A stretch of DNA of 64,000 bases, from NCBI RefSeq assembly GCF_000307105.1, contig NC_018645.1, positions 4,474,001 to 4,538,000 of the forward strand. Direction: 5' to 3'. This stretch comes from Desulfobacula toluolica Tol2 (lineage in GTDB: Bacteria > Desulfobacterota > Desulfobacteria > Desulfobacterales > Desulfobacteraceae). The notes under the pieces are model-generated. The model was not told where the DNA came from. It saw only the letters and a list, made by a program, of their open reading frames with translations, and ran no database searches. Below, piece by piece: positions 21,571 through 47,639 of the stretch. Within the stretch, counting starts at the first letter, position 1. The number at the start of each line of letters is the position of its first letter. The position numbers and the translations under genes were made by a program.

Positions 21571-23085
21571 ATGAATAAATATGATGACATTGTCGTTGGA
21601 AGCGGGGTAAGTGGATTAACTACTGCTTTGATTCTAGGTATGAATCAAAGAAAAGTCCTTTTAATCGAAAAATCTTCTAACATAGGAGGCGCTTTATCTC
21701 GTTTTTATAAAAAAGGTATCCCTTTTGACACTGGGTTTCATTTTACCGGTGGATTTGCGAATGATTTAATTCTTTCTGATATGCTTGAAGTCTTATCAAT
21801 TAATCACGATATCCAACCAGAATTTATAAGACACCCTGAAGACAACAGATTCGTTTTTGAAAACCAGGGCAAGGCACCAGGCAAATCATTTGAATTCCAT
21901 CCTGGTTTTGAACAAACCATGCAAGATATGCTATCTTATTTCCCGGATGAGAAACAAGCAATCCATTCTTATTTTTCTAAAATGAAAAGTATTAGAAAAA
22001 ACACTAAAGCTATGAACATCCGGGCTGAATTTGAAATGCAAAAACCTTTGGACGAAGATTTTATCAGTCTGAAAGATATGCTTGATTCTCTTACTCAAAA
22101 CAAAACACTAAAAACTCTTTTAAGTGCATTTTCCATGTGTCATGGAACTGAACTTTCTAAAATCTCATTTGCAAACCATTCAAGAGTGACATATAGCCTC
22201 TATGAATCAATTGCCAGAGTAAAAAATGGTGGGAATGCTTTTATCAAAGCATTTAAAAAGAAACTTAAAAAATATAATGTCGATATACAAACAAACACTT
22301 TTATTACTTCCTGTGAAGATATTGAAAATCGAAAAGTTGGAACTTTTGTACTTAACAATGGTTCAAAATTAAAAGCAGCAAACTGTATTTTTACAATTCA
22401 TCCTAGAAAAATCTTAAAAACATTTCAAGAAAAAAATACATCCAAAGCATTTGCAGATAGAATTAATAGTTTTGAAGAATCTATTGGATTTTTTCTTGCC
22501 TTTATAAAAATTACAAAAAAAGATCAAAAACCTTTTAATCCCAGCATAACAACGCTTTATCCTGACAATGACATGAACAAAATGTTTGACCCTGAATTTA
22601 AAGGCGACCTGCCGTTAGTTATAGTAAGAAACTCTGAAGAAACTAAAACGAAAAATGTTAATGTTATAAATGCTTTTGAATTATCACATTGGGAGCATGT
22701 AAAAAAATGGGCTGATTCCACGACTGGTAAAAGAAGTTCAGAATATAAAGAGTATAAAAGAAAAACAACCAGTCGGATATGTGAACGCATAATTAAGATT
22801 TTTCCTGAATATAAAGATTGCCTTGAAGTTATTGATTCGGCATCCATGCTGACTTTCCGTGATTATCTAAACAACCCGTTTGGGTCTGCATATGGAATAA
22901 AACAAAAAATAGGACAATTTAATCTTTTTGGTCGTATTCAATATAAAAATACATTTGCAGCAGGACAGAGTGCTATCTTGCCAGGAATAATCGGAGCAAT
23001 GATTTCTGGGTTTACTATTTGCCGATACTTATTGAGTAAAGATGTTTATGCAGCTTTTATAAAAAACCAGCTAAAAGACAAATAA
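21571..23085 (+). CDS. CrtI/RetSat-like FAD-dependent oxidoreductase
   Basis: A 504-residue flavoprotein of the phytoene desaturase / retinol saturase type. The dinucleotide fold is at the N-terminus: VGSGVSGLTTALILG (about residues 9-23), then LLIEKSSNIGGALS and the DTGFHFTGG block. The C-terminus has the second FAD contact TFAAGQSAILPGIIGAM. Relatives desaturate, isomerise or saturate conjugated polyenes. As first gene of the cluster it could introduce or reshape double bonds on a carrier-bound or finished polyene. The substrate is unknown. It starts 19 bases after an inverted repeat that may control the cluster. Confidence 0.8.
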   Translation: MNKYDDIVVGSGVSGLTTALILGMNQRKVLLIEKSSNIGGALSRFYKKGIPFDTGFHFTGGFANDLILSDMLEVLSINHDIQPEFIRHPEDNRFVFENQGKAPGKSFEFHPGFEQTMQDMLSYFPDEKQAIHSYFSKMKSIRKNTKAMNIRAEFEMQKPLDEDFISLKDMLDSLTQNKTLKTLLSAFSMCHGTELSKISFANHSRVTYSLYESIARVKNGGNAFIKAFKKKLKKYNVDIQTNTFITSCEDIENRKVGTFVLNNGSKLKAANCIFTIHPRKILKTFQEKNTSKAFADRINSFEESIGFFLAFIKITKKDQKPFNPSITTLYPDNDMNKMFDPEFKGDLPLVIVRNSEETKTKNVNVINAFELSHWEHVKKWADSTTGKRSSEYKEYKRKTTSRICERIIKIFPEYKDCLEVIDSASMLTFRDYLNNPFGSAYGIKQKIGQFNLFGRIQYKNTFAAGQSAILPGIIGAMISGFTICRYLLSKDVYAAFIKNQLKDK

Positions 23086-23101
23086 GGGTAAAAATATTAT
23101 A

Positions 23102-24337
23102 ATGAGAAGAGTTGTTATTACAGGGACAGGAACCATTTCTGCTCTTGGCAATTCCATGGATGAATTAATAAATTCCATTGAGCGCAAAGTTTGTGGTACA
23201 AAACAAATGACAACATGGAATAAATACAAAGGACTGCAAAGCCTTGTTGGTGCCCCGGCAAAATTACCCGATATAAAAACAATACCGCGAAAAATGCGAC
23301 GTTCAATGGGTAGAATGAGCCTTTTAGCTGTCTTTGCAGCAAATGAGGCTTTAAAGTCAGCTAAAATAGAAAAAGATGCAATCACAAACAAGAGATATGG
23401 TTGTGTTGCCGGTTCTACAATGGGAAGTGCAGAAGCTTTGAACGATACTTTTGAAACTATGCTTCCGGATCATGATCTTACTTTGTTAACATCAATGAGT
23501 TTTTTCAAATGTATTTCCCATACCGTATCCATGAACCTTGCACAATATCTTGGAATTACAGGAAGTATCATTGCAACATCAGCAGCCTGTGCATCTTCTC
23601 TCCAGGCGATAGGCACCGGCTTTGAATTGATCCGGTACAACAAACAGGATATTGTACTTTGTGGTGGTGCAGAAGAGCTGCATCCTACAGTAACAGGCTC
23701 ATTTGATATATTATTTGCAACTTCTACTAAATTTAATGACAATCCTGAAAACACGCCCCGCCCTTTTGATAAAAACCGGGACGGATTAGTTTGTGGTGAA
23801 GGTGCCGGCATACTTGTACTCGAAGAACTTGAACATGCTAAAAAAAGGGGAGCTAATATACTTGCTGAGGTCCTTGGATATAATACTTGTGGAAGTGGTT
23901 CTCATATAAGCCAGTCAAACAAAGAGGCTATGATTCAATGCATGAACTCAACATTGTCAGATGCAAGCTTGAACCCTGAAAATATTGATTTTGTCAGCGC
24001 ACATGCTACTGCAACTTTGCAGGGCGACCATGAAGAGGCAGCAGCTATTTATGAAGTATTTGGATCAAGAATACCTGTTAACAGCTTAAAAGGATATTTA
24101 GGACATACCCTTGGAGCATCAGGTGCTATTGAACTTGCAGTTTCAATTGAAATGATGAATAAAGGTATCATTTATCCAACATTAAACCTTGATGATGTTG
24201 ATGAAAATTGCAGTATGATAAATCATGTAAAAACAAAACTGAAAAAAAACATAAACTTTATACTGAAAAACTGTTTTGCTTTTGGTGGAATAAATGCTTC
24301 TATTATTTGTAAAAAATATGAGGAATTAAATGAGTAG
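23102..24337 (+). CDS. Beta-ketoacyl-ACP synthase, FabF/ApeO-type (KS 1)
   Basis: Elongates an acyl chain on ACP by decarboxylative condensation. The 411-residue protein has a complete thiolase-fold active site: nucleophile Cys 163 in TSAACASSLQ, His 301 in SAHATATLQGD and His 335 in GYLGHTLGASG. The PFDKNRDGLVCGEGAG block is also present. It begins 16 bases after the CrtI-like gene and overlaps the following ACP gene by 8 bases, so this KS and ACP 1 are probably translationally coupled and may work together. Confidence 0.9.
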   Translation: MRRVVITGTGTISALGNSMDELINSIERKVCGTKQMTTWNKYKGLQSLVGAPAKLPDIKTIPRKMRRSMGRMSLLAVFAANEALKSAKIEKDAITNKRYGCVAGSTMGSAEALNDTFETMLPDHDLTLLTSMSFFKCISHTVSMNLAQYLGITGSIIATSAACASSLQAIGTGFELIRYNKQDIVLCGGAEELHPTVTGSFDILFATSTKFNDNPENTPRPFDKNRDGLVCGEGAGILVLEELEHAKKRGANILAEVLGYNTCGSGSHISQSNKEAMIQCMNSTLSDASLNPENIDFVSAHATATLQGDHEEAAAIYEVFGSRIPVNSLKGYLGHTLGASGAIELAVSIEMMNKGIIYPTLNLDDVDENCSMINHVKTKLKKNINFILKNCFAFGGINASIICKKYEELNE

Positions 24338-24593
24338 TGATATAGAAACAATGAATATAGAAACAATGATTAATGAAGTTTTTGAAGAATCTTTTGAAAT
24401 TGAAAAAAAAGAACTTAGACCAGAAGCTAATATATTTGAAGATTTAGGACTGGACAGCCTTGATGTTGTTGATTTGGTTGTTGCCTTACAAAAAAAATTC
24501 AGTGTGGAAATCAGAACTGACGAAAAAATAAAAGATATTAGAACTCTTGAAGATCTTTTCAAATTTATTAAAGAATTACAATTAGAAGCTTAG
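24330..24593 (+). CDS. Acyl carrier protein 1
   Basis: An 87-residue acidic four-helix carrier. The phosphopantetheine serine is Ser 43 in DLGLDSLDVVDLV. Its start overlaps the end of KS 1. The loop after helix II and helix III differs from the other two ACPs of the cluster (34070 and 36189), so each may serve a different set of enzymes. No phosphopantetheinyl transferase gene is visible in the window. Confidence 0.9.
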   Translation: MSSDIETMNIETMINEVFEESFEIEKKELRPEANIFEDLGLDSLDVVDLVVALQKKFSVEIRTDEKIKDIRTLEDLFKFIKELQLEA

Positions 24594-24598
24594 TATTT

Positions 24599-25342
24599 AT
24601 GATCTTTTTCAAGAATCTGTTGTTTTTTATTCTTGTTAGTACTTTTACAATAATTTTTTTTCTGTTTTTTGGAATAATTTTAATATTTATTCGTGTTTTT
24701 AGCTCAAAAACAATAGCTCAAAAAACTTTAAGATTCCTGATTGTATGTTACGGAAGAATAATTATATTCGGTTTTGCAAGAATACTTGTTAAAGTTAAAT
24801 TTATAGATTCATCAGAAGGCAAACAGGCTTTGGACCCTTGTGTGTATGTGGCAAACCACAGCTCAGCTTCAGATGCTTTTCTCATGGGTGTACTTCCGGG
24901 TGAATTTGTTCAAATTGTCAATTTATGGCCTTTTAAGATCCCAATTTTAGGGCTATGCGCTCGTCTTGCCGGATATTTGAGTATTCGAAGTATGTCTTTT
25001 GTTGATTTTTCAAAAGAGTGCAAACTTTTATTTTCAAATAATATTTCAATTATTGGTTTTCCCGAAGGCACTAGATCTGTCTCTTCTCAAATGGGCAAGT
25101 TCCATAGCACATTGTTCAGAATAGCAAAAGAAAATAATCTGAAAATTGTACCCTTGTGCATTTTAGGAAATAAAGACAAGCCATTACGTGGAAGTTTAAA
25201 AATAAATCCAGGAAATATTGAAATTCATAAACTCCCTGCCATTGATTATAATGAATATGAACATTTTAGTAGTTTTGAACTAAAAAATTATACTCGTGCA
25301 AAAATGCAGATATTTATTGATCAACACAAAGAGGTAATATGA
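24599..25342 (+). CDS. PlsC-type lysophospholipid acyltransferase
   Basis: A membrane acyltransferase of 247 residues that would transfer an acyl group from ACP or CoA onto a glycerol-phosphate or similar acceptor. The N-terminus carries a long hydrophobic stretch (about residues 4-35). The catalytic HX4D motif is intact as NHSSASD (His 87, Asp 92), and FPEGTRS (acceptor phosphate binding) follows near residue 153. It lies between ACP 1 and the radical SAM/hot-dog hybrid, overlapping the latter by 4 bases. It is a candidate for anchoring the cluster's product in the membrane. Confidence 0.85.
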   Translation: MIFFKNLLFFILVSTFTIIFFLFFGIILIFIRVFSSKTIAQKTLRFLIVCYGRIIIFGFARILVKVKFIDSSEGKQALDPCVYVANHSSASDAFLMGVLPGEFVQIVNLWPFKIPILGLCARLAGYLSIRSMSFVDFSKECKLLFSNNISIIGFPEGTRSVSSQMGKFHSTLFRIAKENNLKIVPLCILGNKDKPLRGSLKINPGNIEIHKLPAIDYNEYEHFSSFELKNYTRAKMQIFIDQHKEVI

Positions 25343-26391
25343 ACAATAATATAATCAATAGCATAGAAATAGATCTTGGGGGCAGTTGCAACCTTAACTG
25401 TTTTTTTTGTTATTTAACAAAGGTTAAAACTTCTGATAAATTTAACAAAAACAAACTTTTGCTTGATGAAATAATAGATTTGATAAACCAGGCAAATGAG
25501 CTTGGTGTTCAAAAAGTGATTTTATTTAACAATTCATCAAACCAACATCCTGATACTGCCGAAATTCTTAAATTAATTAATAAAAAAAACATGCAAATGG
25601 AATTTTCATTAACAAAACCGTGTAACAACCTATCTGTTAATGAAAATGCATTGATTAAGTGCTTAAAACATAAAGATTCGTGCTTCATTAATTTATATGG
25701 TTCTGTTTATCCTTGCGCTGGAATGCGATTATCAATTGGTAATATACGCCAGAATAGATTAAAAAAAATACTTTTTGACAGTGAGGTTCTTGCAAACCTT
25801 AAAAACCATGAATTCAGTATAAAAGGCCCATGTCGAAAGTGTGATAAATTTTCCAATTGTTATGGGTGTCGTGCCAGAACATTTGCTTTGACTGGTGATT
25901 ATCTGGCATCTGATCCTTTATGTCCTGAAAATCAAGATAAACTTGAAAAAATCACTTATCTTCCCATGTCAGTTGAAAAATTAGTACCTCAAAAACAAGG
26001 CATGCGTGTTGTCACTAATTTATTAACTGTTAAAGAACGTTATGCAAAAGTGGAATCTATTTTTCCAGCCAACAGCCCTTTTATTAAAAAGGATGGAAGC
26101 CTGGAAGAATTTGCGTATATGGAAGTAATGGCACAATCTGCCGGTGTAATGGATGGGTTTGAAAAATTTGATACTGGTAAGCTTAGTCCCGGAGGATTTT
26201 TAATCGGAGGTCAAAAAATTAATATTTATGCTAAAACCTTTGCCGGAGATAAGCTTATTATTGATATTTATAAAACAACTAAATTTGGAAATTTTGGCAT
26301 ACTTACAGCAAAAATATATTGTAAAGATATTTTAATTGCAGAAGGTGAAGTAAAGATTTATCAAACTGACGGAGTAAATAATGAAATTTAA
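25339..26391 (+). CDS. Hybrid protein: shortened radical SAM/SPASM region fused to ApeP-like hot-dog domain
   Basis: A 350-residue fusion. Residues 17-24 hold a radical SAM motif CNLNCFFC. The segment that should carry the SAM-binding GGE reads FNNSSNQHPD. SPASM-like cysteines follow at 126, 165, 168, 174, 177 and 195, only about 100 residues after the first cluster, where complete enzymes have roughly 200 or more. Residues about 205-350 resemble a 3-hydroxyacyl-ACP dehydratase hot dog with a possible catalytic Glu 262 in YMEVMAQSAG; the usual N-terminal LPH appears as LPM. The reading frame is continuous. The barrel looks eroded, so an Fe-S scaffold or a dehydratase with a structural N-domain is more likely than a SAM enzyme. 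Confidence 0.65.
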   Translation: MNNNIINSIEIDLGGSCNLNCFFCYLTKVKTSDKFNKNKLLLDEIIDLINQANELGVQKVILFNNSSNQHPDTAEILKLINKKNMQMEFSLTKPCNNLSVNENALIKCLKHKDSCFINLYGSVYPCAGMRLSIGNIRQNRLKKILFDSEVLANLKNHEFSIKGPCRKCDKFSNCYGCRARTFALTGDYLASDPLCPENQDKLEKITYLPMSVEKLVPQKQGMRVVTNLLTVKERYAKVESIFPANSPFIKKDGSLEEFAYMEVMAQSAGVMDGFEKFDTGKLSPGGFLIGGQKINIYAKTFAGDKLIIDIYKTTKFGNFGILTAKIYCKDILIAEGEVKIYQTDGVNNEI

Positions 26392-27010
26392 CATTATAAT
26401 ATTACTAATAATCTTTTTAATTCCTACCAGTCAACTTTTTGCTGCAGATGCTCAGATTGATAATTTTTTATCGGAAGTAGAACAAAACATGAGCCAGGTT
26501 AATACAGTTCATGCCATGTTTGTTCAGAAAAAAGAAATGGCTATGTTTGACATACCTATTATAATCAAAGGTGAGTTCTATATTCAAAACCCTGATAAGT
26601 TTGCCTGGATTGTGACTGATCCGATTGAATACACACTGATTTTAAGCAAATACAAGGTTAAAAAATGGGACAAATCAAACGGAACACAAGAGATGTCACT
26701 AAAAGATAATCCAATGTTCAAAGCAATGATTGAACAGATTACTTTCTGGTTCTCAGGATCATATTCATCGTGTAAAAATGATTATGATATCAAAGTTATT
26801 CAAAAAAACCCAGGTATCTTAGACTTTGCGCCAAAGAAACATAATCCTGCTTCAGAAATGCTCACTAATATCACTCTTACTTTTCAAAATGATAAAAGAT
26901 ATATCTCAAATATCAAACTTTTGGAAAAAAATGATGATATTACCGAACTCTTTTTTAATGATGTAATCTTAAACTCAAAAATTGACAAGTCAGTTTGGGA
27001 AACAAATTAA
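26381..27010 (+). CDS. LolA-like periplasmic lipoprotein carrier
   Basis: A 209-residue secreted protein with a signal peptide (cleavage after about residue 21, LFAAD) and a LolA-type fold: repeated beta strands with FVQKKEMAMFDIPIIIKGEF and YIQNPDKFAWIVTDP. Stand-alone LolA homologues sit in aryl polyene clusters beside an MMPL exporter, where they are thought to carry the lipid product across the periplasm. Here it overlaps the hybrid gene by 11 bases and is followed after 2 bases by the MMPL gene, so the same use is likely. Confidence 0.82.
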   Translation: MKFNIIILLIIFLIPTSQLFAADAQIDNFLSEVEQNMSQVNTVHAMFVQKKEMAMFDIPIIIKGEFYIQNPDKFAWIVTDPIEYTLILSKYKVKKWDKSNGTQEMSLKDNPMFKAMIEQITFWFSGSYSSCKNDYDIKVIQKNPGILDFAPKKHNPASEMLTNITLTFQNDKRYISNIKLLEKNDDITELFFNDVILNSKIDKSVWETN

Positions 27011-27012
27011 CC

Positions 27013-29385
27013 GTGTCTAAAAAGACTGATATAAACTTTGATAAACTCAATAAGTTTGACTTATTTTTTGATTTTATTGGAAAAAATAAAATTTATCTTC
27101 TGATTTTATTTTTCCTTCTAATCATGGTTTCTTTTGTTCGAATTGCCAAAGTAGATTTTGTTAATGATATTTCTGTTATGTTACCAGATTCCCCTGAATT
27201 AAAAAGATCTCTTGATTTTATTAATAATTCAGACATGTCTGACACTATAGCTTTTTCCATAACATGTAAAAACAATTCAAATAAAAATTTATTATCACAA
27301 ACAGAGGCTTTTTCAGACAAATTAAAAAAAGTTTCTCTGATTACTGAAGTAGTAACAGGAATTGAAAATCTTGATATTTCAAAATTGAGAAGGGATATTA
27401 CAAAATTATTACCGCTGTTACTTGCAAAAGAAGATTATAAATTATTTAAAGATATTGAAAAAGATGAGTATATTGCTGAAAAAGCAAGACAGTTGTTTAT
27501 TATGCTTACAACACCCGGCAGTTCATTTATGCAAACATCTATGGACACAGACCCTTTTGGGTGGTCTAACCATATACTCAATAAGCTTCAGGTTTTAAGC
27601 AAATCAATGGGGTTTGATGTTGAACTTAAGAACAAGCATTTTGTTGACAAAACCCATCAATATTCACTTGCTATAGCCAAAACATCCGCTCCTTTAACAG
27701 ATGCTGAAAAATCTGAAATTCTTATGTCAGCAATAAATGATATCATAAAAACGTTCCCTGATCTTAATATTGTGACAGTATGCGGGCATAAGCATACATT
27801 GAGTAACCAGAAAATTGTTAAAAAAGATATATATATTACCACTATCATTATCACTCTTAGTTTTATTGTCTTAATGCTCTTTATGTTTAAAACATTTGAT
27901 GCTCTGTCAATATTTATCTTGCCGTTTTTTGCTATTGTTCTTTCTGTTTTTATCTCCAGTTTTATTCTCAATTCTTTATCCTTTTTTATGATAGGATTTG
28001 CTGCTGTGATCGCAGGAATTTCTGTTGACTATGGGATACATTTGTTCACTGCCTGGAAGACTAACGGTTATAAAGGATTAAAAAATACAATTAAACCCGT
28101 TTGGATAGCATCTTTAAGCACAATGGGTGTCTTTGTCTCTTTTTTTATTTCATCTGTTCAGGGTTATAAGGAGCTTGCTGTTTTTTCCATTATCAGCATT
28201 GTGATTTGTGTTCTTTTATCAATAATTTTTTTGCCTCATTTTTGGAAAAAGAAAAGTTTAATCCCCAACATTAATATCCCTGCTGAAGTATCAGTCAATA
28301 AAAGTAAATTTATCTTAATTTTGTGGGGTGTAATTTTCTTTTTTTCCATAATGAGTATGATAAATTCTGATTTTTTGAAAGCAACCGACATTTCAGCCTT
28401 TGATGGAAGCGAGCAAAGTGTTTTTGATTCAGAATCACAATTTTATGGTGTTTGGGGTGGAGAAAAAAAACCAGGTGTCATTGTTACAAAAGGCAAAAAT
28501 ATTGAAGATGCCTGGCCCGATTATGAACTAATAACAAATAAACTTAAAAATAATATTGATGGGTTTAACTCGCTTGCTGTTCTTTTGCCTTCAATAAAGC
28601 AACAACAAAAAAATTTGCAGAACTTTCAAGAATTCTGGACAAAAGATAAGATTTTTCAACTTAAAGACAAATTCTTAAAAGAAACAGAGGCTTATGGTTT
28701 TAAAAAAGATTCTTTTAACAAATTTTTCCTTTTGCTTGAATCAAAAGGCCTTTCATTTGAAAATCAAATTCCGGAAGTATTACAAATATTTGAAAAGCAC
28801 TTTGTCAAAGAGATCGACTCAACTCATCTTCTCTCTTATTTTAATGACACAAAAGAAAACTTTACAAAAATAGAATCAGTTTTAACGGATTATCCAGATT
28901 CGTATATAGTTTCAAGAATAGAACTTTCTTCCCACATTGGAAAACAATTAATCCTGGACTTGAAAAAGATATCTTTTTTTGCATTTTGCTGGGTGTGTGT
29001 ATTGATTATAATTTTTTTGAGAAAGCCCAAGGATATTTTTCTATCATTACTTCCTGTTGTAACCTCAATTTCGTTTGTTTTTCTTGCTTTAAACCTTCTT
29101 TCAATCGAGGTCTCTGCAATAATTCTTATAACTTTAATTATTATTTTAGGCTTAAGTCTTGATTACGGTGTTTTTATATCAAGCGCTGATTCATTAAAAA
29201 ATAGAAAGTCTGTAATTATTGCTGCAACTTTCTCAATGCTGACAAGTATGATGGGAGCAGGCGCATTATTATTTGCTTCTCACCCTGTGATGTTTTCTAT
29301 AGGAGTAACTTTAGTAAGTGGAATTATTGCAGCTTACTTGAGCGCAGTCTTTTGTATTCCTGCTTTTAAAAAGGTGTTAAAATGA
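27013..29385 (+). CDS. MMPL/RND-family lipid exporter
   Basis: A large inner-membrane transporter of about 790 residues with the duplicated RND plan: first membrane helix at about 29-47, a large periplasmic loop to about 270, a helix bundle at about 272-410, helix 7 near 430, a second periplasmic loop to about 650, and a final bundle to the C-terminus. The repeated blocks AVIAGISVDYGIHLF and IIILGLSLDYGVFIS mark the paired fourth helices. I prefer the GTG at 27013, two bases after the LolA stop; a TTG at 26995 is possible. It probably exports the cluster's lipid with the LolA-like and DUF3261 partners. Confidence 0.85.
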   Translation: MSKKTDINFDKLNKFDLFFDFIGKNKIYLLILFFLLIMVSFVRIAKVDFVNDISVMLPDSPELKRSLDFINNSDMSDTIAFSITCKNNSNKNLLSQTEAFSDKLKKVSLITEVVTGIENLDISKLRRDITKLLPLLLAKEDYKLFKDIEKDEYIAEKARQLFIMLTTPGSSFMQTSMDTDPFGWSNHILNKLQVLSKSMGFDVELKNKHFVDKTHQYSLAIAKTSAPLTDAEKSEILMSAINDIIKTFPDLNIVTVCGHKHTLSNQKIVKKDIYITTIIITLSFIVLMLFMFKTFDALSIFILPFFAIVLSVFISSFILNSLSFFMIGFAAVIAGISVDYGIHLFTAWKTNGYKGLKNTIKPVWIASLSTMGVFVSFFISSVQGYKELAVFSIISIVICVLLSIIFLPHFWKKKSLIPNINIPAEVSVNKSKFILILWGVIFFFSIMSMINSDFLKATDISAFDGSEQSVFDSESQFYGVWGGEKKPGVIVTKGKNIEDAWPDYELITNKLKNNIDGFNSLAVLLPSIKQQQKNLQNFQEFWTKDKIFQLKDKFLKETEAYGFKKDSFNKFFLLLESKGLSFENQIPEVLQIFEKHFVKEIDSTHLLSYFNDTKENFTKIESVLTDYPDSYIVSRIELSSHIGKQLILDLKKISFFAFCWVCVLIIIFLRKPKDIFLSLLPVVTSISFVFLALNLLSIEVSAIILITLIIILGLSLDYGVFISSADSLKNRKSVIIAATFSMLTSMMGAGALLFASHPVMFSIGVTLVSGIIAAYLSAVFCIPAFKKVLK

Positions 29386-30071
29386 AATTTTTCTTACTTT
29401 TCTTCTCTCTGCTATTTATAGCTGGCTGTTCAACCATAGATGTACCTGAGCATAATCTTGTCCCACTTAACCATATAGACAAAAAAACTGCCTGCAAAGA
29501 AATAGCTCAATATAATGATTCAATTACACAAAAAACAAACATGATCAACTCAACCATATTCACGTTCAAAGGTCGATCCATGACTGCTCTCGGCATTACC
29601 AAACTTGACGGAGAAAATAAAAATTTTTCTGTTGCAGGTTTTAATCCCATGGGCATAACCCTTTTTAAAATTCAAATGGAAGATGAAAAGGTAATTTCAA
29701 GTTACGTTATTCCTCAATTCGGCGCTGATAATCTTGATAAGGCGGCTTCCATGATAAGTCAAGATATAGCACATATCTATTTTAACAGAAAAATTGATTT
29801 AAAGACTGCATCTCTTGAGCTTGATAAATATAAAGTTACAATAAATACTCAAGTGGACCAAAATGATTTTGAATACATTTTTAGTGGGCAGCCTCTAAAA
29901 CTGACAACAAAATCAATGTATAAAAATAACAACAAAATCTGGTCTGTTGATTATTATGATTATACAATTGTTAACGACAGGACATCTAATAGAGAAATAC
30001 CGTTCAAACTTTTTTTTAAAAATTATAAATATGGCTATGTCCTTGAAATAGAGACAAAAGAAATAAAATAA
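29382..30071 (+). CDS. DUF3261-family lipoprotein
   Basis: A 229-residue lipoprotein; the signal peptide ends in LFIAGC with the lipidated Cys at residue 16. The mature domain (FKGRSMTALGITKLD, FNPMGITLFKIQ) matches the DUF3261 family, a standard member of aryl polyene clusters, where it is thought to receive product at the outer membrane. It overlaps the MMPL gene by 4 bases and ends the LolA-MMPL-DUF3261 export block. A weak GTGTAT/ATACAC hairpin followed by a T-rich run lies just after its stop. Confidence 0.8.
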   Translation: MKFFLLFFSLLFIAGCSTIDVPEHNLVPLNHIDKKTACKEIAQYNDSITQKTNMINSTIFTFKGRSMTALGITKLDGENKNFSVAGFNPMGITLFKIQMEDEKVISSYVIPQFGADNLDKAASMISQDIAHIYFNRKIDLKTASLELDKYKVTINTQVDQNDFEYIFSGQPLKLTTKSMYKNNNKIWSVDYYDYTIVNDRTSNREIPFKLFFKNYKYGYVLEIETKEIK

Positions 30072-30177
30072 TCATTTGTGTATACGCATACACCCAAAAT
30101 CTTTTTATTTATTTGTTTAAAAAAACTTTATATTGATATATGGTTCGAGTTTTAGCAATCAAAGATTTGACTTGAAA

Positions 30178-31993: not shown

Positions 31994-31995
31994 TA

Positions 31996-40416: not shown

Positions 40417-41842
40417 TAAGCAACAACGAACTAATATTGTTGATATTATAAGAAAAGAAAATTTTGAACAAAACAGTAATCTTGCTGTAACCAGATCGGT
40501 AAAAGATGGATTGAAAAATTCAATCACATATTCAGAACTGTTTAAAGAGGTTGAAAAATATAGCAAAAAGCTCTCTATAATCGGTTTTACAAGTCACGAC
40601 CGTATCGCTCTTTTTTGTGAAGATTCAATAGAATATGTTATTATGGCACTTGCAATTTTAGATACTGATGCTGTTATTGTTCCCATATCTCCTTCTCTTT
40701 CCTCTAATGAGTTAGAAATTTTATGCAATCGGATTAAAGTTAAATATATTGTATCTGAAAAAAAAATTACAACATATTCTATTGTTTCAGAAAAATACCT
40801 TGATAAACTTTATCTTTATGAAATTGATAAAAATATCAAATATTCAAAATATTATATGGAAGTTAATAGTCCTGCCTTTATTCGTTTTTCATCAGGCACA
40901 ACCGGAGAAAGCAAAGGAGTGTTATTAACTCATCAGGCAATTATCGACAGAACCTCTGCTGCTGATGAAAGGCTTAATATAGCTTCAAATGATATTATTG
41001 GCTGGTTTTTATCCATGAGCTTCCATTTTGTAGTCAGCATTCTTCTTTTTTTGCGTAAACGTGCCCATATTGTTTTATCCCAGAATAACTTCCCTACAGG
41101 TTTTATTGACTCGTTTGAGACAATTAAACCTACATTTTTATATGCTTCACCTTTTTATTATAATTTGCTTGCAACTCATAAAAATATTTCAAGCACATTG
41201 TTGTCGGATGTTCGTATGGCTGTGGTAACAGCTGTATCCCTCAATAAGAAAACAGAACGAAAATTTTATGATAAATTCAATATTCATCTTAGCCAGGCCT
41301 ATGGTATTATCGAAGTTGGCCTGCCGTTTATTAATGACAGATTTGATGATGAATATATTTGTTCTGTGGGAAAACTTTTACCATCCTATGATCTAAAGAT
41401 TAAAGATCCTGATGATAAAGGTCAGGGTAGAATTTATCTTAAAGGAAAAGGAATGTATTCTGCATACATTTCCCCCTGGAAAAAGCAAACTCAATGGTTT
41501 GATACAGGTGATATCGGATATTTAAAAAATTCTTATCTTTTTATTTCAGGCAGATCTAAAAACATTATAAATTTTGCAGGCATGAAAATATTTCCTGAAG
41601 AAGTAGAAAAAATTATTTTAAGTTATGACAACATTAAAGAAGTAAGGGTCTTTGCTGAAAGACATGATGTTTACGGACAACTACCCATAGCTGAGTTTGT
41701 ATTGGCATCCAAAGAAGAGCTTAATGTTTTTAAACTAAAAAAGTATTGTTTACAGCACCTTGATTCATACAAAATACCCAAGGAATTTATTGAAGTTGAA
41801 TCTATAGAAAAAACATTGAGTCAAAAAATTAAAAGGACATAG
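40406..41842 (+). CDS. AMP-dependent acyl/aryl ligase (adenylating enzyme)
   Basis: An ANL-superfamily ligase of 478 residues that activates an acid as adenylate and loads CoA or an ACP. Motifs are FIRFSSGTTGESKG, AYGIIEVGLP, FDTGDIGYL, and the hinge block INFAGMKIFPEEVEK; the C-terminal catalytic lysine is probably in SQKIKR. Start at the ATG at 40406, behind AAGGA and inside the end of protein B's gene. In aryl polyene clusters the equivalent ligase loads the aromatic starter. With no ammonia-lyase here, the starter may be a free fatty or aromatic acid. Confidence 0.83.
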   Translation: MMINKQQRTNIVDIIRKENFEQNSNLAVTRSVKDGLKNSITYSELFKEVEKYSKKLSIIGFTSHDRIALFCEDSIEYVIMALAILDTDAVIVPISPSLSSNELEILCNRIKVKYIVSEKKITTYSIVSEKYLDKLYLYEIDKNIKYSKYYMEVNSPAFIRFSSGTTGESKGVLLTHQAIIDRTSAADERLNIASNDIIGWFLSMSFHFVVSILLFLRKRAHIVLSQNNFPTGFIDSFETIKPTFLYASPFYYNLLATHKNISSTLLSDVRMAVVTAVSLNKKTERKFYDKFNIHLSQAYGIIEVGLPFINDRFDDEYICSVGKLLPSYDLKIKDPDDKGQGRIYLKGKGMYSAYISPWKKQTQWFDTGDIGYLKNSYLFISGRSKNIINFAGMKIFPEEVEKIILSYDNIKEVRVFAERHDVYGQLPIAEFVLASKEELNVFKLKKYCLQHLDSYKIPKEFIEVESIEKTLSQKIKRT

Positions 41843-41843
41843 T

Positions 41844-42578
41844 ATGAATGAAAATTCTGAACAGATAGTATTGGTAACAGGTGCCAGTAAAGGTATTGGA
41901 CAGGCTATTGCTGTGGAACTAGGACAAAAAGGAAGAGTTGTCTATGTAAACTTTCAAACAGATAAAAAAGGAGCCCTTGAAACCTGCAAATTAATTGAAA
42001 AAAATGGTGGTATAGCCAAAGCCCTGCAATTTGATGTGAGTAATGCAAAAGAATCTGAACAAGCTGTAAACTCAATACTCAAGACCCATGAAAAAGTCGA
42101 TATCCTTGTTAATAATGCCGGGATCAGAAACGATAAACTCATGGCATTCATGCAGGAGTCTGACTGGAAAAATGTTTTAGATACCAATCTTGCATCTTTT
42201 TTTAATGTATCAAAATTAATTGTTAAAAATATGATTACCAAACGTTTTGGAAGGATAGTCAATATTTCATCCACAGCTGGACAAGTTGGTAATGCAGGCC
42301 AGGTTAATTATTCTGCTGCCAAAGCCGGTATAATTGGAGCAACAAAAGCTTTGGCAAAAGAAATAGCCAAAAGAAATATTACTGTTAATGCTGTGTCTCC
42401 AGGATTTATTGATACTGGAATGCTTGATGGAATGCCCCTTGATGAAATCACAAAAATGATACCGTGTGCAAGACTTGGAACAGTTGAAGAAGTAAGCGCG
42501 CTTGTTGGCTTTTTATGTTCAAATCAAGCCTCCTATATAACAGGACAGGTAATTGGAGTAAATGGTGGAGTAGCCTGA
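41844..42578 (+). CDS. 3-oxoacyl-ACP reductase (FabG-type SDR)
   Basis: A 244-residue short-chain dehydrogenase that reduces the beta-keto group after each condensation, using NADPH. The cofactor loop GASKGIGQ, NNAG, and the catalytic Ser, Tyr and Lys (ISSTAGQ, YSAAK) are all present, and the C-terminal block YITGQVIGVNGG is typical of FabG. It follows the ligase by 1 base and is the only ketoreductase of the cluster, so it should serve all elongation rounds. Confidence 0.92.
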   Translation: MNENSEQIVLVTGASKGIGQAIAVELGQKGRVVYVNFQTDKKGALETCKLIEKNGGIAKALQFDVSNAKESEQAVNSILKTHEKVDILVNNAGIRNDKLMAFMQESDWKNVLDTNLASFFNVSKLIVKNMITKRFGRIVNISSTAGQVGNAGQVNYSAAKAGIIGATKALAKEIAKRNITVNAVSPGFIDTGMLDGMPLDEITKMIPCARLGTVEEVSALVGFLCSNQASYITGQVIGVNGGVA

Positions 42579-42583
42579 ATCTT

Positions 42584-43045
42584 ATGAATAAACCATATTT
42601 TAAAACAGCAAAAGATGCACCTGAACCTTTAAGAGCCATTGTAAAAACCATTACAAGATTTGAAGAAATCGATTCTATGGGTATTGCCTGGCATGGAAGG
42701 TTTGCAAGCTATTTTGAGGATGCCAGGGTATCTTTGGGTGAAAAATATAAAATCAGTTATTTTGATCTTTTTAACAATGGAATTTTAGCTCCATTAAAAA
42801 AAATTCATATTGACTTTAAAAAACCTGTTTTCTTTAGAGAAGAGATATCAATCGAATGTATTTTGCATTATACCGAGGCTTCAAAAATTTCAACTGAGTA
42901 TATAATCAAAAAACAAGATAATACAATAGCTGCAACAGGATATGTTATTCAAATGCTGCTTAACCTAAAATATGAACTCTTTTTAACCCAGCCTGAATAT
43001 TATAAAAATTTTTGTAAGATGTGGGAAAAAGGGAAAATTAAATGA
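42584..43045 (+). CDS. Acyl-CoA/ACP thioesterase, 4HBT hot-dog type
   Basis: A 153-residue hot-dog thioesterase. The YbgC/4HBT signature is visible as EIDSMGIAWHGRFASYFEDAR, with the Asp and the WHG loop of the active site. Such proteins hydrolyse acyl- or aroyl-thioesters. Small thioesterases also occur in aryl polyene clusters, where they may remove stalled chains. I use the ATG at 42584, right after the reductase stop; the open frame extends back inside the reductase gene. It overlaps KS 3 by 4 bases. Confidence 0.8.
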   Translation: MNKPYFKTAKDAPEPLRAIVKTITRFEEIDSMGIAWHGRFASYFEDARVSLGEKYKISYFDLFNNGILAPLKKIHIDFKKPVFFREEISIECILHYTEASKISTEYIIKKQDNTIAATGYVIQMLLNLKYELFLTQPEYYKNFCKMWEKGKIK

Positions 43046-44172
43046 GAAATGTTGTTATTGCTCAAACCTCTGTTGTTACATCTGTCGGCTCAGATTTGAC
43101 CTCTACTTTTCAATCTTTTTTAAATAAAAAATCAGGCATTAAGAAAATTGATCGATTTGAAACTAAAAACTATAGAAGTAAATATGCAGCACTCATTAAA
43201 GATATAGAGACACCTGAAAATAGAAGCAGTTTCTTAAATCTTACTGATTTGATCATTGACCAACTGAATGACATACCCAAAAATTGCCGTTTGTTAACAG
43301 CTACGACACAAGCATGTGTTGATCTGTTTGAAAAAAACGAAAAAAAAAAATGCTCTATAAACAAATACCTGATCCCTTCCAATATCCCTAAATACATAGC
43401 TCGAAAATTAAACCTGAAAGACAGCGGAATAAATATAAATTCTGCCTGCGCTTCCCCAACAATTGCTATTATTAAAGGCACGCAAATGATTAAAAACAAA
43501 AGAGCAGACTCTGTTCTTATATTTTGTGCTGATATTGTAAGTGAATTTGTTTTTTCAGGTTTTTCCGCGTTAAACGCACTCTCTGCATGCCCTACACAAC
43601 CTTTTGATATTAACAGAAAAGGGTTGAATCTTGGTGATGGAGGGGCGGCAATCCTTCTTATGAATGAAGAACTTGCAAAAAAAAATCATATTGAGTTTAA
43701 CACATCCATTGCAGGATATGGCATTGCATCCGACGCCACTCATATTACCGCACCGGCAAAGGACGGACGTGGATTAATCATGGCTGTCAAAAATGCTCTT
43801 AAAACGGCTAAAATAAATGCTGATCAAATTGGTGCAGTCAATACTCATGGCACAGGAACTATATATAATGATTCCATGGAAATTAATGCATTAAAAAATA
43901 TTTTTAAAGACATAAAGATACCGGCAAATTCATTTAAAGGCTCAATTGGACACACTTTGGGTGGTGCAGGCGGAATTGAAGCAGCCGTTGGGACATTAAT
44001 GCTTAAAGAACATATACTTCCTGGAACCTGTGGTTTTTCAAACCCTGAAAAAGATGCTGAAAATTTAATAAGTTCTGACAATGTATCGTTTTTTAAAAAT
44101 TATCTTTTAAGTACAAATTCCGGTTTTGCCGGAACAAATGCTGCTTTAGTTTTAAAAAGGATAAATTGTTAA
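43042..44172 (+). CDS. Beta-ketoacyl-ACP synthase (KS 3)
   Basis: A 376-residue ketosynthase with complete active site: Cys 136 in INSACASPTIA, His 269 in NTHGTGTIYND and His 304 in GSIGHTLGGAGG. It is shorter at the N-terminus than KS 1. The following partial ketosynthase gene starts within its stop codon (TAATG), so the two are probably made together and may form a heterodimer, repeating the KS-plus-partner layout seen at 34418-36183. Confidence 0.88.
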   Translation: MRNVVIAQTSVVTSVGSDLTSTFQSFLNKKSGIKKIDRFETKNYRSKYAALIKDIETPENRSSFLNLTDLIIDQLNDIPKNCRLLTATTQACVDLFEKNEKKKCSINKYLIPSNIPKYIARKLNLKDSGININSACASPTIAIIKGTQMIKNKRADSVLIFCADIVSEFVFSGFSALNALSACPTQPFDINRKGLNLGDGGAAILLMNEELAKKNHIEFNTSIAGYGIASDATHITAPAKDGRGLIMAVKNALKTAKINADQIGAVNTHGTGTIYNDSMEINALKNIFKDIKIPANSFKGSIGHTLGGAGGIEAAVGTLMLKEHILPGTCGFSNPEKDAENLISSDNVSFFKNYLLSTNSGFAGTNAALVLKRINC

Positions 44173-44918
44173 TGGATTATTATATATGCGGCATAGGTTT
44201 TGTGACTCCTGAATCATTTGGATGTGGCAGGGATTTTAAAACCTTTAATCCAAAACCTGGAAAACTTTCCCCCATAACAAGAAAAGATGTTTTAGAAAAA
44301 CCTTATAAACCTTTTGGCAGGATGGACTTTTTTTCAAAAATTGGTTTTACAGGTGCATATTTTGCCTATAAAGATGCTCAATTAATTACTGCTGAACCAG
44401 TTGAAAACAATAAAACATCCAATACTGCTATAGTTGTATCAACACATTTTAGATGTCTTGATACTGATAATAATTATTTTCAAACAATCAAATCTGAAAA
44501 TGGCAAGAATGCCAGCCCAGCCCTGTTTGCATATGCACTTCCAAATGCATTTTTAGGCGAAACTTCAATTTATTTAAAAACAACCGGTCAATGTTTTGCT
44601 ATTAATGAAGACAGTACAAATGGAATTACCGCACTTAAAATGACATTTGACATATTAAATTCCGAGGAATCTGAAATTGTAATATGCGGCGTCTGCGATG
44701 TAAACATTCCAAAAATTTTAGAGAAACAGTTAAACAACAGAGATGATTGTTTTGCAGGAAGTCTTTTTTTTACAATCAGCAAAAAAGAACAAAAACATAA
44801 TTATGGCAAAATAAAAGAAGATGAAAACGGTAATTTTTTTTTTAATGAAAAGAATATAGAAAGTCTCCTTGATCTTGCTCAAGTTTGTATAGAAAACAAT
44901 AAATTAAGGACAATTTAA
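44172..44918 (+). CDS. Partial ketosynthase-like protein (KS 4, Cys to Ser)
   Basis: A 248-residue protein that aligns only with the N-terminal half of ketosynthases (YYICGIGFVTPES at the start, IVICGVCDVN later). At the nucleophile turn it reads INEDSTNG where KS 3 has INSACASP, so Ser replaces Cys, and the region with the two catalytic His is missing. It should be catalytically dead and act as a partner or length factor for KS 3. The ATG overlaps the KS 3 stop by one base. The call rests on pattern similarity and is moderately sure. Confidence 0.65.
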   Translation: MDYYICGIGFVTPESFGCGRDFKTFNPKPGKLSPITRKDVLEKPYKPFGRMDFFSKIGFTGAYFAYKDAQLITAEPVENNKTSNTAIVVSTHFRCLDTDNNYFQTIKSENGKNASPALFAYALPNAFLGETSIYLKTTGQCFAINEDSTNGITALKMTFDILNSEESEIVICGVCDVNIPKILEKQLNNRDDCFAGSLFFTISKKEQKHNYGKIKEDENGNFFFNEKNIESLLDLAQVCIENNKLRTI

Positions 44919-44922
44919 TATT

Positions 44923-46182
44923 ATGAAAATGCAACTAATCTTTCCTGAATGGAAAAAACTCAGGCATCAGACAGTATTTCATCTTCCTCCCCATGCACCG
45001 GTTGTGTTTTCCGCAGCTCTACCAGAATACGTTGATCTTCATTTTTTTGATGAAAATGTACAAACTATTCAATATGACACGACCTATGATATTATTGCAA
45101 TCTCAGTACTTCTTTCCTGCCAGATTCCAAGAGCATTAGAAATTGCTGATAAATATAGAAAAGAAGGGGTTCCTGTGATTTTTGGAGGCATTGCAGTTAT
45201 GCTTCATCCCAAAGAAGTCATGGAACATGCTGATTCTGTATTCCTTGGTGAAGTTGAAGATGGAAGGCTTACAAAGCTTCTTGAAGACTTTAAAAATGGT
45301 GAGTTAAAAAAAGTTTATGATTATATGCAAGATCACCCTGACACCAATACAATTGGACCTGCCAGGAGAGATATTCTTGATCATGAACTCTATGCCTACA
45401 GAGGCATTCAAATGGTTGATCTTGTTCATGCATCCCGTGGTTGCAAATTCAATTGTTTTCCATGTTGCAATAATTTTTTAGGTGGTAGTAAATTCAGGCC
45501 ACGTCCCATTGATACAGTCATTAAAGAGATAAGTGAAATAAAAAACAACCGTCTTTTTATTGTGGACAACTCCCTTGCTCAGGATAAAGAGTGGGTAATG
45601 GATCTTTTTAGAGAAATGATACCCTTAAAAAAGAAATGGGTTTCACATCCTATTGTTTATGATGATGATGTGCTTAAACTTGCTGCTGAAGCTGGATGCT
45701 GGTATGTTTATCAAGCAATTGTTGATACATCAGATGTTATCAAAGACAGAATAAAACGCCTCCATGATCATGGAATCGGGGTAGAAGGAACAATTCTTTT
45801 AGGTACTGATGAACAAGATGAAGATTATATTAAGCGTTTGATTGATTTTCTCATGGAAACAAATCTTGATATGGCTGAGTTTACAATTCTTACACCTTTC
45901 CCGGAAAGTCCTATCAGAAGAAAATTTGAAAAAGAAGGAAGGATTCTGCACAATGACTGGAGCAAGTATTCGTGTGATAATGTAGTTTTCCAGCCAAAGC
46001 AAATATCCCCTGAAAGACTTGAGGCAATGTATGATCTTGCCTGGGAAACCTTTTATGCCAATGGAGGTCAGCAAACAAAAATGGGTTCGCTTTTTTATAA
46101 AGTTATCCAGAAAGAAATCAAAGATGGTACATATAGACGATATAATCCAAAAACAAAACGGGCTTTCAGGAAACTGATATGA
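44923..46182 (+). CDS. B12-binding-type radical SAM protein C
   Basis: A 419-residue enzyme. The N-terminal cobalamin-binding-like domain (VIFGGIAVMLHPKEVM, FLGEVEDG) is followed by the radical SAM motif CKFNCFPC at residues 174-181, with one more Cys directly after it. Later barrel blocks are LFIVDNSLAQD and EGTILLGTDEQDEDY, and TILTPFPESPI matches the C-terminal block of B12 radical SAM proteins. It overlaps protein D's gene by 4 bases, so C and D may act in sequence. Substrate unknown. Confidence 0.85.
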   Translation: MKMQLIFPEWKKLRHQTVFHLPPHAPVVFSAALPEYVDLHFFDENVQTIQYDTTYDIIAISVLLSCQIPRALEIADKYRKEGVPVIFGGIAVMLHPKEVMEHADSVFLGEVEDGRLTKLLEDFKNGELKKVYDYMQDHPDTNTIGPARRDILDHELYAYRGIQMVDLVHASRGCKFNCFPCCNNFLGGSKFRPRPIDTVIKEISEIKNNRLFIVDNSLAQDKEWVMDLFREMIPLKKKWVSHPIVYDDDVLKLAAEAGCWYVYQAIVDTSDVIKDRIKRLHDHGIGVEGTILLGTDEQDEDYIKRLIDFLMETNLDMAEFTILTPFPESPIRRKFEKEGRILHNDWSKYSCDNVVFQPKQISPERLEAMYDLAWETFYANGGQQTKMGSLFYKVIQKEIKDGTYRRYNPKTKRAFRKLI

Positions 46183-47639
46183 TCATGAACCGTAAAAATA
46201 AAAAAATTCTGCTTGTTCATCCTTTGGGTTATAAATCTGATAAAGCATCCACTGATATTTCAAGAATCGCTAATATTACACCACCACTTGGCATTGCAAG
46301 CATTTGCGCCTATTTGCTTTTACGACAAATTGATTGTGATATAATTGATTGCTATGCCCATCCTGATGCAGACAAGAAAATCAATAAATATCTTGAAACT
46401 GAAAAACCTGACTATATTGGTTTTTCCTGTTCAACTTCAACTTTTATGGATGGAATACGTATTGCAAAAATCTCAAAATCAATACTTTCTGACATTAAAA
46501 TTGTTTTTGGTGGCGCACATGTTTCAGCTTTAAAAGAATCAATTATAAATAATTTTAACATTGTTGATTATGTGGTCGTAGGTGAAGGAGAGCAGACACT
46601 TACTGAACTAATAGAAGCTGACAACAAGAACCTTTCCGATATTAAAAACATTGTCTACAAAAATTATGATAATAAAGTTGTTTTTACCGGATACAGAAAA
46701 AATTTACTTGATTTAGACTCCCTGCCCTTCCCGGCATATGAAAAACTTGACGGGTATCCCGAAAAATACAAACTCCCGATTTTCAACTACCCCAAAACTC
46801 CGAATTCCAGCTGTATTTCAAGCAGAGGCTGTCCTTATTCATGCAGTTATTGTGACAGATCCGTATTCAGAAAAACTTTCAGATTCAACAGTGCTGAATA
46901 TCTTTACAAACATTTTAAATATTTAAACCATAATTTTGGAATCAAGCATGTAAATTTTTATGATGATCAATTCACATTCCATAAAAAAAGAGTTTTAAAA
47001 TTTTGTGATCTTATGATTTCAGGCGATCTTAAAATGAGTTTTAACTGTGCTGCAAGAGCAGAACATCTTGATCATGAAATTGTTACGGCAATGAAGGCTG
47101 CCGGGTGTTGGATGATTAGCCTGGGTATTGAAACAGGAGATCAAAAACTTCTTGCACAACATAGACAAAATGCAAATATTGAAATGCTTCGAGAAAAAAT
47201 CACATTAATTAAAAAAGCAAAAATACGTGTAAAAGCCCTTTTGATGATGGGACTTCCAGGGGAAACAGAAGAAAGTATATCAAAAAGTAAAAAATATGTT
47301 TATTCTCTGCCAATTGATGACTTTAATCTTGCAAAATTCACTCCTTTTCCCGGCTCTCCAATCTACCAACAAATCAAGGATGGTGGCTCTTTAGGAACTT
47401 TTGATGAAAATTGGGAGAAAATGGACTGCATGGAATTTATTTTTATTCCCAATGGAATTAACAAGGAAAAAATGGAAGCACTGTTTATAGATTTTTACAG
47501 ATCTCATTTTATGAGATATAAAGTCCTTTTTGGATACTTTTCTATGATATGGAAATCACCAGATTCCTGGCGCAGATTTTTCATTGATTTTTTCTCTTTT
47601 ATGAACTTTATTAAAAATAAAAAAAGAGTTCAGACATAG
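46179..47639 (+). CDS. B12-binding-type radical SAM protein D
   Basis: A 486-residue enzyme, last of the cluster. It begins with a cobalamin-binding-like fold (KILLVHPLGY, PPLGIASICAYLL, IVFGGAHVSALKE, VVVGEGEQT) and has the radical SAM motif CPYSCSYC at residues 218-225. The barrel shows FYDDQFTFHKKR, WMISLGIETGDQKLL and LLMMGLPGETEESI, the classic pattern of this class. No DXHXXG motif is seen. Its first ATG overlaps protein C's stop; a second ATG lies two codons later. Substrate unknown. Confidence 0.87.
   Translation: MIMNRKNKKILLVHPLGYKSDKASTDISRIANITPPLGIASICAYLLLRQIDCDIIDCYAHPDADKKINKYLETEKPDYIGFSCSTSTFMDGIRIAKISKSILSDIKIVFGGAHVSALKESIINNFNIVDYVVVGEGEQTLTELIEADNKNLSDIKNIVYKNYDNKVVFTGYRKNLLDLDSLPFPAYEKLDGYPEKYKLPIFNYPKTPNSSCISSRGCPYSCSYCDRSVFRKTFRFNSAEYLYKHFKYLNHNFGIKHVNFYDDQFTFHKKRVLKFCDLMISGDLKMSFNCAARAEHLDHEIVTAMKAAGCWMISLGIETGDQKLLAQHRQNANIEMLREKITLIKKAKIRVKALLMMGLPGETEESISKSKKYVYSLPIDDFNLAKFTPFPGSPIYQQIKDGGSLGTFDENWEKMDCMEFIFIPNGINKEKMEALFIDFYRSHFMRYKVLFGYFSMIWKSPDSWRRFFIDFFSFMNFIKNKKRVQT

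Follow-up and report, generated by a model that had tools for sequence, protein, structure and literature searches.

The 64,000-nucleotide stretch of the Desulfobacula toluolica Tol2 genome analysed here (the window; NC_018645.1, positions 4,474,001 to 4,538,000 of the forward strand, in a genome that is a single contig of 5,197,905 bases) contains a candidate lipid pathway encoded by 26 plus-strand open reading frames (ORFs) at 21571-47639, with operon-like spacing of −64 to +75 bp (largest gap, 75 bp). Scoring of all 26 proteins against Pfam and NCBIfam profiles with curated cut-offs bears out the gene list of a preliminary description made from the sequence alone: the contiguous same-strand genes encode three ketosynthases (KS1-KS3) that keep the active-site Cys and both His motifs, three acyl carrier proteins (ACPs; two recognized by Pfam, ACP2 by its DSL serine and orthology), one ketoreductase (KR), Pfam-supported dehydratase-like, thioesterase (TE), LolA, DUF3261 and CrtI-like proteins, and four cobalamin-type (B12) radical SAM proteins (rSAM1-rSAM4), each above the cut-offs of both the B12-binding family PF02310 (32.1 bits) and the radical SAM family PF04055 (29.5 bits). 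Within the proposed LolA/MMPL/DUF3261 export set, LolA and DUF3261 are confirmed by Pfam, and the MMPL/RND protein has no Pfam match and reaches sub-cut-off NCBIfam scores only. To the parts list can be added two chain-length-factor-like (CLF) proteins, an ApeI-like half-dehydratase (DH), a pair consisting of a GT2-DUF2062 glycosyltransferase (GT) and an LpxL-like acyltransferase, and two elements that had been overlooked, namely a condensation-domain-fold protein and a fusion of a decayed radical SAM/SPASM enzyme with a hotdog-fold dehydratase half.

The fusion protein retains the CxxxCxxC motif and the SPASM cysteines and has lost about 130 barrel residues relative to intact relatives; its predicted model has three barrel strands and a cysteine loop with pLDDT below 50, and the protein does not combine CxxxCxxC with the complete partial barrel of a catalytic radical SAM/SPASM enzyme. 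The barrel is intact in the Nitrospirota and Omnitrophota relatives. The fusion matches ApeP (chain 6qsr_B), and DH matches ApeI (chain 6qsr_A) with an E-value of 0.0016, second among nine weak matches. Among DH records scoring above 100 bits and fusion records above 300 bits (two per set duplicate one contig), the GHFP motif occurs in 29 of 30 DH and none of 26 fusion records, and the Glu motif in all 26 fusion and none of 30 DH records, complementary motifs that, with the two chain matches, show homology to the ApeI:ApeP-type split dehydratase, whose heterodimer the two proteins would form. Alignment A1 excludes locus L012, which has one internal stop; the fusion ORF of L022 extends to the end of its stretch, and loci L099 and L111 are truncated at contig boundaries. 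Replacement of the gutted SPASM enzyme by rSAM4 was considered and found unsupported; in relative G317 the core is likewise gutted, yet the 40 kb examined there contain no rSAM4.

Table 1. Genes of the 26-gene block, with profile scores and motifs supporting each assignment.
Product	Position	Strand	Support
CrtI/CrtD-like FAD oxidoreductase (polyene desaturase, isomerase or saturase)	21571-23085	+	PF01593 53.2 bits, over cut-off; top NCBIfam CrtD 70 bits, far under cut-off
KS1, active ketosynthase by motif	23102-24337	+	PF00109/PF02801; PRK09116 452 bits (cut-off 470); Cys/His/His kept
ACP1	24330-24593	+	PF00550 43.8 bits; DSL serine
LPLAT-type acyltransferase (ApeD-like)	24599-25342	+	PF01553 55.6 bits
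Gutted radical SAM core (residues ~1-91), SPASM (107-195) and ApeP-like hotdog half-dehydratase (~208-344)	25339-26391	+	
LolA-like periplasmic carrier	26381-27010	+	PF03548 63.4 bits; flexirubin LolA2 107 bits (cut-off 125)
RND/MMPL-type lipid exporter (predicted)	26995-29385	+	No Pfam match; HpnN 55 and HAE3 53 bits, both sub-cut-off; neighbour position conserved
DUF3261, LolB-like protein	29382-30071	+	PF11659 28.2 bits (cut-off 22.3)
DH, ApeI-like hotdog half-dehydratase, His-bearing	30133-30561	+	PF07977 31.6 bits; PF22818 ApeI-like 23.8 bits (cut-off 28.5); GHFP His, no Glu motif
rSAM1, TIGR04072 "rSAM_ladder" equivalog	30623-31993	+	TIGR04072 653.6 bits (cut-off 360); PF02310 62.2, PF04055 47.5 bits
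GT2 glycosyltransferase with DUF2062 membrane domain	31933-33168	+	PF00535 75.6, PF09835 44.3 bits; real start probably downstream of the listed GTG
LpxL-like acyltransferase; ApeJ-like pair together with GT	33155-34051	+	PF03279 59.2 bits
ACP2	34070-34342	+	No Pfam match; DSL serine and orthology; conserved beside KS2
KS2, active ketosynthase by motif	34418-35599	+	PF00109/PF02801; Cys/His/His kept
CLF2, chain-length-factor-like, assumed KS2 partner	35602-36183	+	PF13723 48.0 bits; no active Cys
ACP3	36189-36446	+	PF00550 26.3 bits; DSL serine
Condensation-domain-fold protein, probably acyltransferase	36450-37787	+	HxxxD kept; no Pfam match; weak Condensation match in 4/20 relatives
FAD-dependent oxidoreductase	37784-38929	+	PF12831 120.3 bits
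rSAM2, HpnR-related	38926-40416	+	PF02310 54.1, PF04055 75.5 bits; HpnR 234 bits
AMP-dependent acyl ligase	40367-41842	+	PF00501 172.9 bits
FabG-type ketoreductase (SDR)	41844-42578	+	PF00106 193.6, PF13561 200 bits
4HBT-fold thioesterase	42515-43045	+	PF13279 46.3 bits
KS3, active ketosynthase by motif	43042-44172	+	PF02801 95.4, PF00109 53.1 bits; Cys/His/His kept
CLF3, KS-like, no active Cys	44166-44918	+	PF00109 22.8 bits, barely over cut-off
rSAM3, no named subfamily	44923-46182	+	PF02310 34.2, PF04055 33.0 bits
rSAM4, BchE/HpnJ-related	46179-47639	+	PF02310 80.8, PF04055 79.9 bits; BchE 187, HpnJ 180 bits

Beyond the assignment of rSAM1 to TIGR04072, none of the B12 radical SAM proteins joins a named subfamily: rSAM2 falls short of the 650-bit cut-off of the hopanoid C-3 methylase HpnR, and rSAM4 of those of BchE (481 bits) and HpnJ (578 bits). 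rSAM3 ranks with the best-conserved cluster proteins, with counterparts of about 56-68% identity beside rSAM1 in other phyla and families. A role of these enzymes in tRNA or peptide modification was discarded, given that no such NCBIfam family comes near its cut-off and that linkage to the synthase is conserved. In relative G075, a reversed rSAM2-like gene (L023:10093-11508, 46%) lies within its own cluster beside a CrtI-like stretch, and the 77% ortholog of rSAM2 is on another contig.

These affinities bear on the reading that the product is a ring-free branched or methylated long-chain lipid, with the B12 enzymes acting mainly as HpnR-like C-methyltransferases; it overlaps the interpretation favoured below, and we regard it as a possible but distinctly less likely account. 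HpnR is indeed the nearest named relative of rSAM2, at a score far under cut-off, and that we know of no tested relative of rSAM1 or rSAM3 counts against a mainly methylating set. In the excerpt of PMC13142503 on cobalamin-dependent radical SAM enzymes, the subclass is described as predominantly associated with methylation, which speaks for this reading, and BchE and HpnJ, the nearest relatives of rSAM4, are named as non-methylating, which speaks against it.

All 26 genes recur in identical order in the congener G051 and in G076 (locus comparison), the CrtI-like ortholog being collinear in both and also in G075 up to its contig end; because this order recurs and most of the genes are kept in other phyla, the block is more than a chance assembly. 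TIGR04072 scores exceed the cut-off in 84 of 395 genomes of a phylum sample and in none of 14 controls, gene context within that list being drawn from 20 loci only. Cluster genes were mapped at 121 loci with gene profiles built from the loci that they then mapped. The named loci are the best 80 of 567 relatives rather than a random sample, and the 78 with a called rSAM1 (L129 and L162 excluded) divide at an rSAM1 profile score of 590 into 47 of type A and 31 of type B. The type-A order is KS1-ACP1-LPLAT-SPASM/hotdog-LolA-RND-DUF3261-DH-TE-KS3-CLF3-rSAM3-rSAM1-GT2-LpxL-ACP2-KS2-CLF2-ACP3-condensation-FAD oxidoreductase-rSAM2-AMP ligase. Among named loci that offer more than 1.3 kb upstream, the distance between rSAM3 and rSAM1 is at most 400 bp in 35 of the 42 of type A and in 21 of the 27 of type B (56 of 69 in total). 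Within 10 kb of rSAM1 in the 18 type-A loci with 9 kb on both sides, LpxL and DH are always found, rSAM3 in 17, and KS2 and RND in 16 each; the CrtI-like gene is found in one, a count that is partly a matter of reach. The 14 type-B loci with 9 kb on both sides have rSAM3 in 11, KS2 in 12 and rSAM4 in nine. The possibility, raised with the preliminary description, that the radical SAM proteins belong to unrelated families and lack linkage to the synthase is thus contradicted by their conserved linkage to it, seen in the rSAM3-rSAM1 adjacency and in a gene order kept across phyla, and by the presence of rSAM3 in 12 of 15 chosen whole genomes.

The block has a GC content of 32.6%, against 42.7% in the remaining window, and is much lower than both flanks in third-position GC, which is 0.22-0.26 for 15 genes of the cluster and 0.40-0.53 for 16 genes around it. 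At E≤1e-60, rSAM2 is found in six of 86 genomes of the family and in two of 26 of the genus (the window's included, many partial), which makes the cluster patchy; at E≤1e-80 it is found in seven of the 395 phylum-sample genomes, among which, besides the window's, G317 alone carries it in this kind of cluster; in G370 its neighbours differ and include LolA, RND, condensation-fold and rSAM1-like genes, and the remaining four (G300, G162, G440 and G244) have the distant relatives described below. On account of its low third-position GC and patchy occurrence, the cluster looks like a horizontally acquired island. A promoter scan upstream of the block gave three matches against 2.9 in shuffled sequence, and hence no excess. 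The block is bracketed by two PrmA-family methyltransferase genes (18598-19422 and 47689-48633), with a DUF4410 protein and, on the minus strand, a PagL-like lipid A deacylase directly upstream (19926-21093). Directly downstream, after PrmA, lie Mla-type lipid transport genes (48760-52413; MlaE with STAS, ATPase, MlaD and an unknown protein), which were considered as cluster members; tblastn of the flanking proteins in nine relative loci returned only a 31% ATPase match, so that no linkage was seen there.

Gene content, motifs, split-dehydratase homology, conserved linkage, base composition and distribution are observed, and from them we infer every chemical step. We consider it probable, if far from assured, that the operon uses its own ACPs to build a polyunsaturated acyl chain, which ends up in the outer membrane as a (glyco)lipid, similar to an aryl polyene (APE) lipid without the aryl starter and tailored by B12 radical SAM enzymes. 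An ACP would be primed by the AMP ligase and/or KS1, and the chain would be extended by KS2:CLF2 and KS3:CLF3, reduced by KR and dehydrated by the split enzyme, made up of the ApeI-like His half (30133) and the ApeP-like Glu half fused to SPASM; the double bonds would be retained, since the block has no enoyl reductase. The CrtI-like flavoprotein and the four B12 radical SAM enzymes would alter the chain by C-methylation and/or formation of C-C ring bonds, after which the LPLAT, condensation-fold and LpxL-like proteins together with GT could join it to a head group and the RND/LolA/DUF3261 set could transport the lipid to the outer membrane.

Several points weigh against this interpretation. 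Within 10 kb of rSAM1, KR is found in none of the 18 type-A loci with full flanks, which is partly a matter of reach; because of this count, KR may be supplied elsewhere and a closed pathway may be limited to the clade of the window. KS:CLF pairs are assigned on the assumption that gene order reflects them, participation of a housekeeping enoyl reductase could leave the product saturated, and the CrtI-like protein may act as a desaturase, an isomerase or a saturase. Foldseek matches to the predicted model of the condensation-fold protein (pLDDT 87.0) are nonribosomal peptide synthetase C domains, AzeD, PapA5 and WS/DGAT (best E 7.1e-20), and because the top TM-score is to AzeD, which is titled a dehydratase, it may have a function other than acyl transfer. 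Linkage, too, is imperfect: rSAM1 relatives without synthase neighbours exist (L076 and L132; L125 has KR only), and 34-36% identical rSAM2 relatives stand outside such clusters, without a synthase in the stretches examined, in G300, G162, G440 and G244. Finally, in the excerpt of Rattray 2009 (PMC2649909), Desulfotalea psychrophila, whose gene cluster is syntenic with that of Kuenenia, is reported to lack ladderanes and to contain C31:8 and C31:9 hydrocarbons. These C31 polyenes were considered as the cluster product, and no gene link was seen in the literature consulted; the organism is absent from PMC6463001.

To our knowledge, all anammox bacteria make ladderanes, and the preliminary description had linked the cluster to that pathway. 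For comparison, 25 anammox genomes, many of them drafts, were chosen by eye for frame length and low copy number of the hydrazine synthase subunit HZS-alpha among the matches listed (76 of 392 genomes of a Planctomycetota sample matched), G535, G781 and G808 being excluded as having similar frames in more copies; in all 25, HZS-alpha aligns with the G582 protein over 771 residues or more at 61-100% identity. A TIGR04072 ortholog occurs in five of the 25, counting G582, which is the reference for the 61-65% identity of the others. Of the other 20, 11 have nothing at E≤1e-60 and nine a 32-34% paralog only; in the three of these genomes that were inspected (L221, L222 and L224), no other cluster gene was mapped in the 20 kb around it. 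The TIGR04072 block is present in three of the first eight confirmed genomes (G582, G662 and G752; L218-L220) and missing from three genomes with long main contigs, G616 (4.03 Mb), G711 (4.08 Mb) and G742 (3.46 Mb). In G582 it reads KS-KS-(357-aa ORF)-KS-CLF-(435-aa ORF)-SPASM rSAM-TIGR04072-KR-ACP-hotdog-RND-CrtI-GT, which is the order of kuste3352-3335, the kuste numbers having been assigned by matching gene order to the gene table in the excerpt of PMC4790861.

A second anammox module, the ACP-FabZ-KS-KS-CrtI-B12 rSAM operon of kuste3603-3608 type, is collinear in all eight genomes, and its kuste3608-type rSAM is present at ≥74% identity in 15 of the 17 further ones (G856 as a fragment), hence in 23 of 25; the exceptions are small drafts with a 59% (G700) or 38% (G884) relative only. 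In a limited tree of selected families, this enzyme and rSAM3 share one branch with 100/100 support. That rSAM3 is its plain ortholog was rejected when the reverse comparison across 15 genomes undid this suggestion: with the anammox query, rSAM3 is the top match in eight genomes, is beaten in six and in the window genome is tied (31%) with an unlinked protein (28%), the best matches (39-40%) lying at or beside type-C loci of the Desulfobacterota G463 and G348. Because rSAM3 is tied or beaten, the window appears by sequence to be related to the near-universal anammox module without clearly carrying it. Several further arrangements were observed. Loci L083 and L084 (G348 and G463) hold counterparts of both modules in or near one locus, with several KS, SPASM rSAM, TIGR04072, KR, ACP and a kuste3608-like rSAM. 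Of the eight anammox genomes (L218-L220 and L239-L246), three have both CrtI-like genes and five the kuste3607-type only, the extra copy in G752 being interrupted by stops. Many of the 17 also carry another rSAM, which shares about 51-59% identity with the kuste3608-type enzyme (for example G689:C59 and G647:C31), perhaps the counterpart of kuste2803, and a Lentisphaerae genome has five radical SAM paralogs at 33-35% identity to that enzyme within about 13 kb (G490:C367:43234-56283).

In a true ladderane-type pathway, the radical SAM enzymes would convert a polyene into concatenated cyclobutanes, the scheme put forward for anammox bacteria. The membership of rSAM1 in TIGR04072 speaks for it, as do the syntenic anammox block, which in L218-L220 has KS1/KS2-like, CLF-like, SPASM rSAM, TIGR04072, ACP, RND, CrtI-like and GT genes (KR mapped in L218) as in the kuste3335-3352 list, and the Kuenenia-Desulfotalea synteny in the excerpt of Rattray 2009. 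What weakens the ladderane reading is the count of five against 23 of 25 genomes, the tie that leaves the near-universal rSAM without a clear ortholog in the window, and the reported lack of ladderanes in D. psychrophila; in the excerpt of PMC9387917, moreover, four of 34 candidates are described as potential acquisitions at the origin of anammox, with kuste2805, 3603 and 3605-3606 named in the figure. We hold this pathway very unlikely for the window. Because most of the anammox genomes examined lack the rSAM family that it shares with anammox bacteria, the cluster is probably not a ladderane pathway, and the comparison suggests a sister of the anammox pathway rather than the same one.

How ladderanes are made has long been debated, and 'ladderane' is the label that genome-mining papers give to such clusters. 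The distribution separates a module shared with sulfate reducers, with an rSAM that most of the anammox genomes examined lack, from the kuste3603-3608 type, which is near-universal there and therefore the stronger candidate for ladderane synthesis. The rSAM3-rSAM1 pair, conserved and uncharacterised, and the radical SAM/SPASM-dehydratase fusion also come to light, and a cultured sulfate reducer would make their product directly testable. We advance more tentatively, at somewhat short of even confidence, that anaerobes of several phyla (Desulfobacterota, Nitrospirota, Omnitrophota, relatives of Verrucomicrobiota and others) form a family that produces outer-membrane polyene lipids of an undescribed class, in which the rSAM3-rSAM1 pair would carve the chain and the intact-barrel SPASM fusion would couple radical chemistry with carrier-bound dehydration; 'ladderane' would then be a misnomer for these clusters.

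The cluster family has already been touched by Rattray 2009 and by 'ladderane' genome mining; a Cariaco Basin study (PMC9902471, in excerpt) reports such clusters in several phyla, Desulfobacterota among them, without settling what they do, and Javidpour 2016 (PMC4790861, in excerpt) expressed Kuenenia candidate genes in E. coli with no ladderanes detected. The open-licence literature yielded no description of the SPASM-hotdog fusion or of the cluster family as a type. The kuste3335-3352/Desulfotalea cluster has in common with the window the TIGR04072 B12 rSAM, SPASM rSAM, CrtI-like, KS/CLF-like, ACP, KR, hotdog, RND and GT genes; the window adds rSAM2-rSAM4, KS3/CLF3, the condensation-fold protein and LolA/DUF3261, has its SPASM protein hotdog-fused and gutted, and lacks the SAM methylase of the kuste list. 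The kuste3603-3608-type operon shares an ACP, FabZ, a KS (375-385 bits with the KS1 profile), a second KS, a CrtI-like protein and a B12 rSAM, the last only about 31% identical to rSAM3 and with closer homologs elsewhere. Type-B clusters of Geobacter/Desulfuromonas relatives share rSAM3-rSAM1-rSAM4, KS2/CLF2, KS3/CLF3 and export genes; unlike the window fusion, their hotdog protein stands alone, and the condensation-fold, FAD oxidoreductase, rSAM2 and AMP ligase genes are unmapped within 10 kb of rSAM1 in all 31 loci (14 with 9 kb on both sides).

The parallel that the preliminary description drew with APE clusters (E. coli apeA-R in the excerpt of PMC8253772; X. doucetiae ApeI:P) holds for the synthase and export core: KS with CLF, an ApeI:ApeP-type split dehydratase, ACPs, KR, TE, LPLAT and other acyl- and glycosyltransferases, LolA-RND-DUF3261 and an AMP ligase are all present, as they would be in an ordinary APE cluster with additional tailoring genes. 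The 'aryl' part is weakened, in that by Pfam none of the 26 proteins has a domain of an ammonia lyase, a chorismate lyase or a class I methyltransferase, starter enzymes elsewhere in the genome not having been sought. The condensation-fold protein, the two FAD enzymes and the four B12 rSAMs likewise fall outside the E. coli list in that excerpt, and we judge an ordinary APE cluster unlikely. The window shares the chassis of the APE systems and is set apart from them by a block without aryl-starter or methyltransferase genes, by its B12 radical SAM enzymes and by the fusion of one dehydratase half to SPASM.

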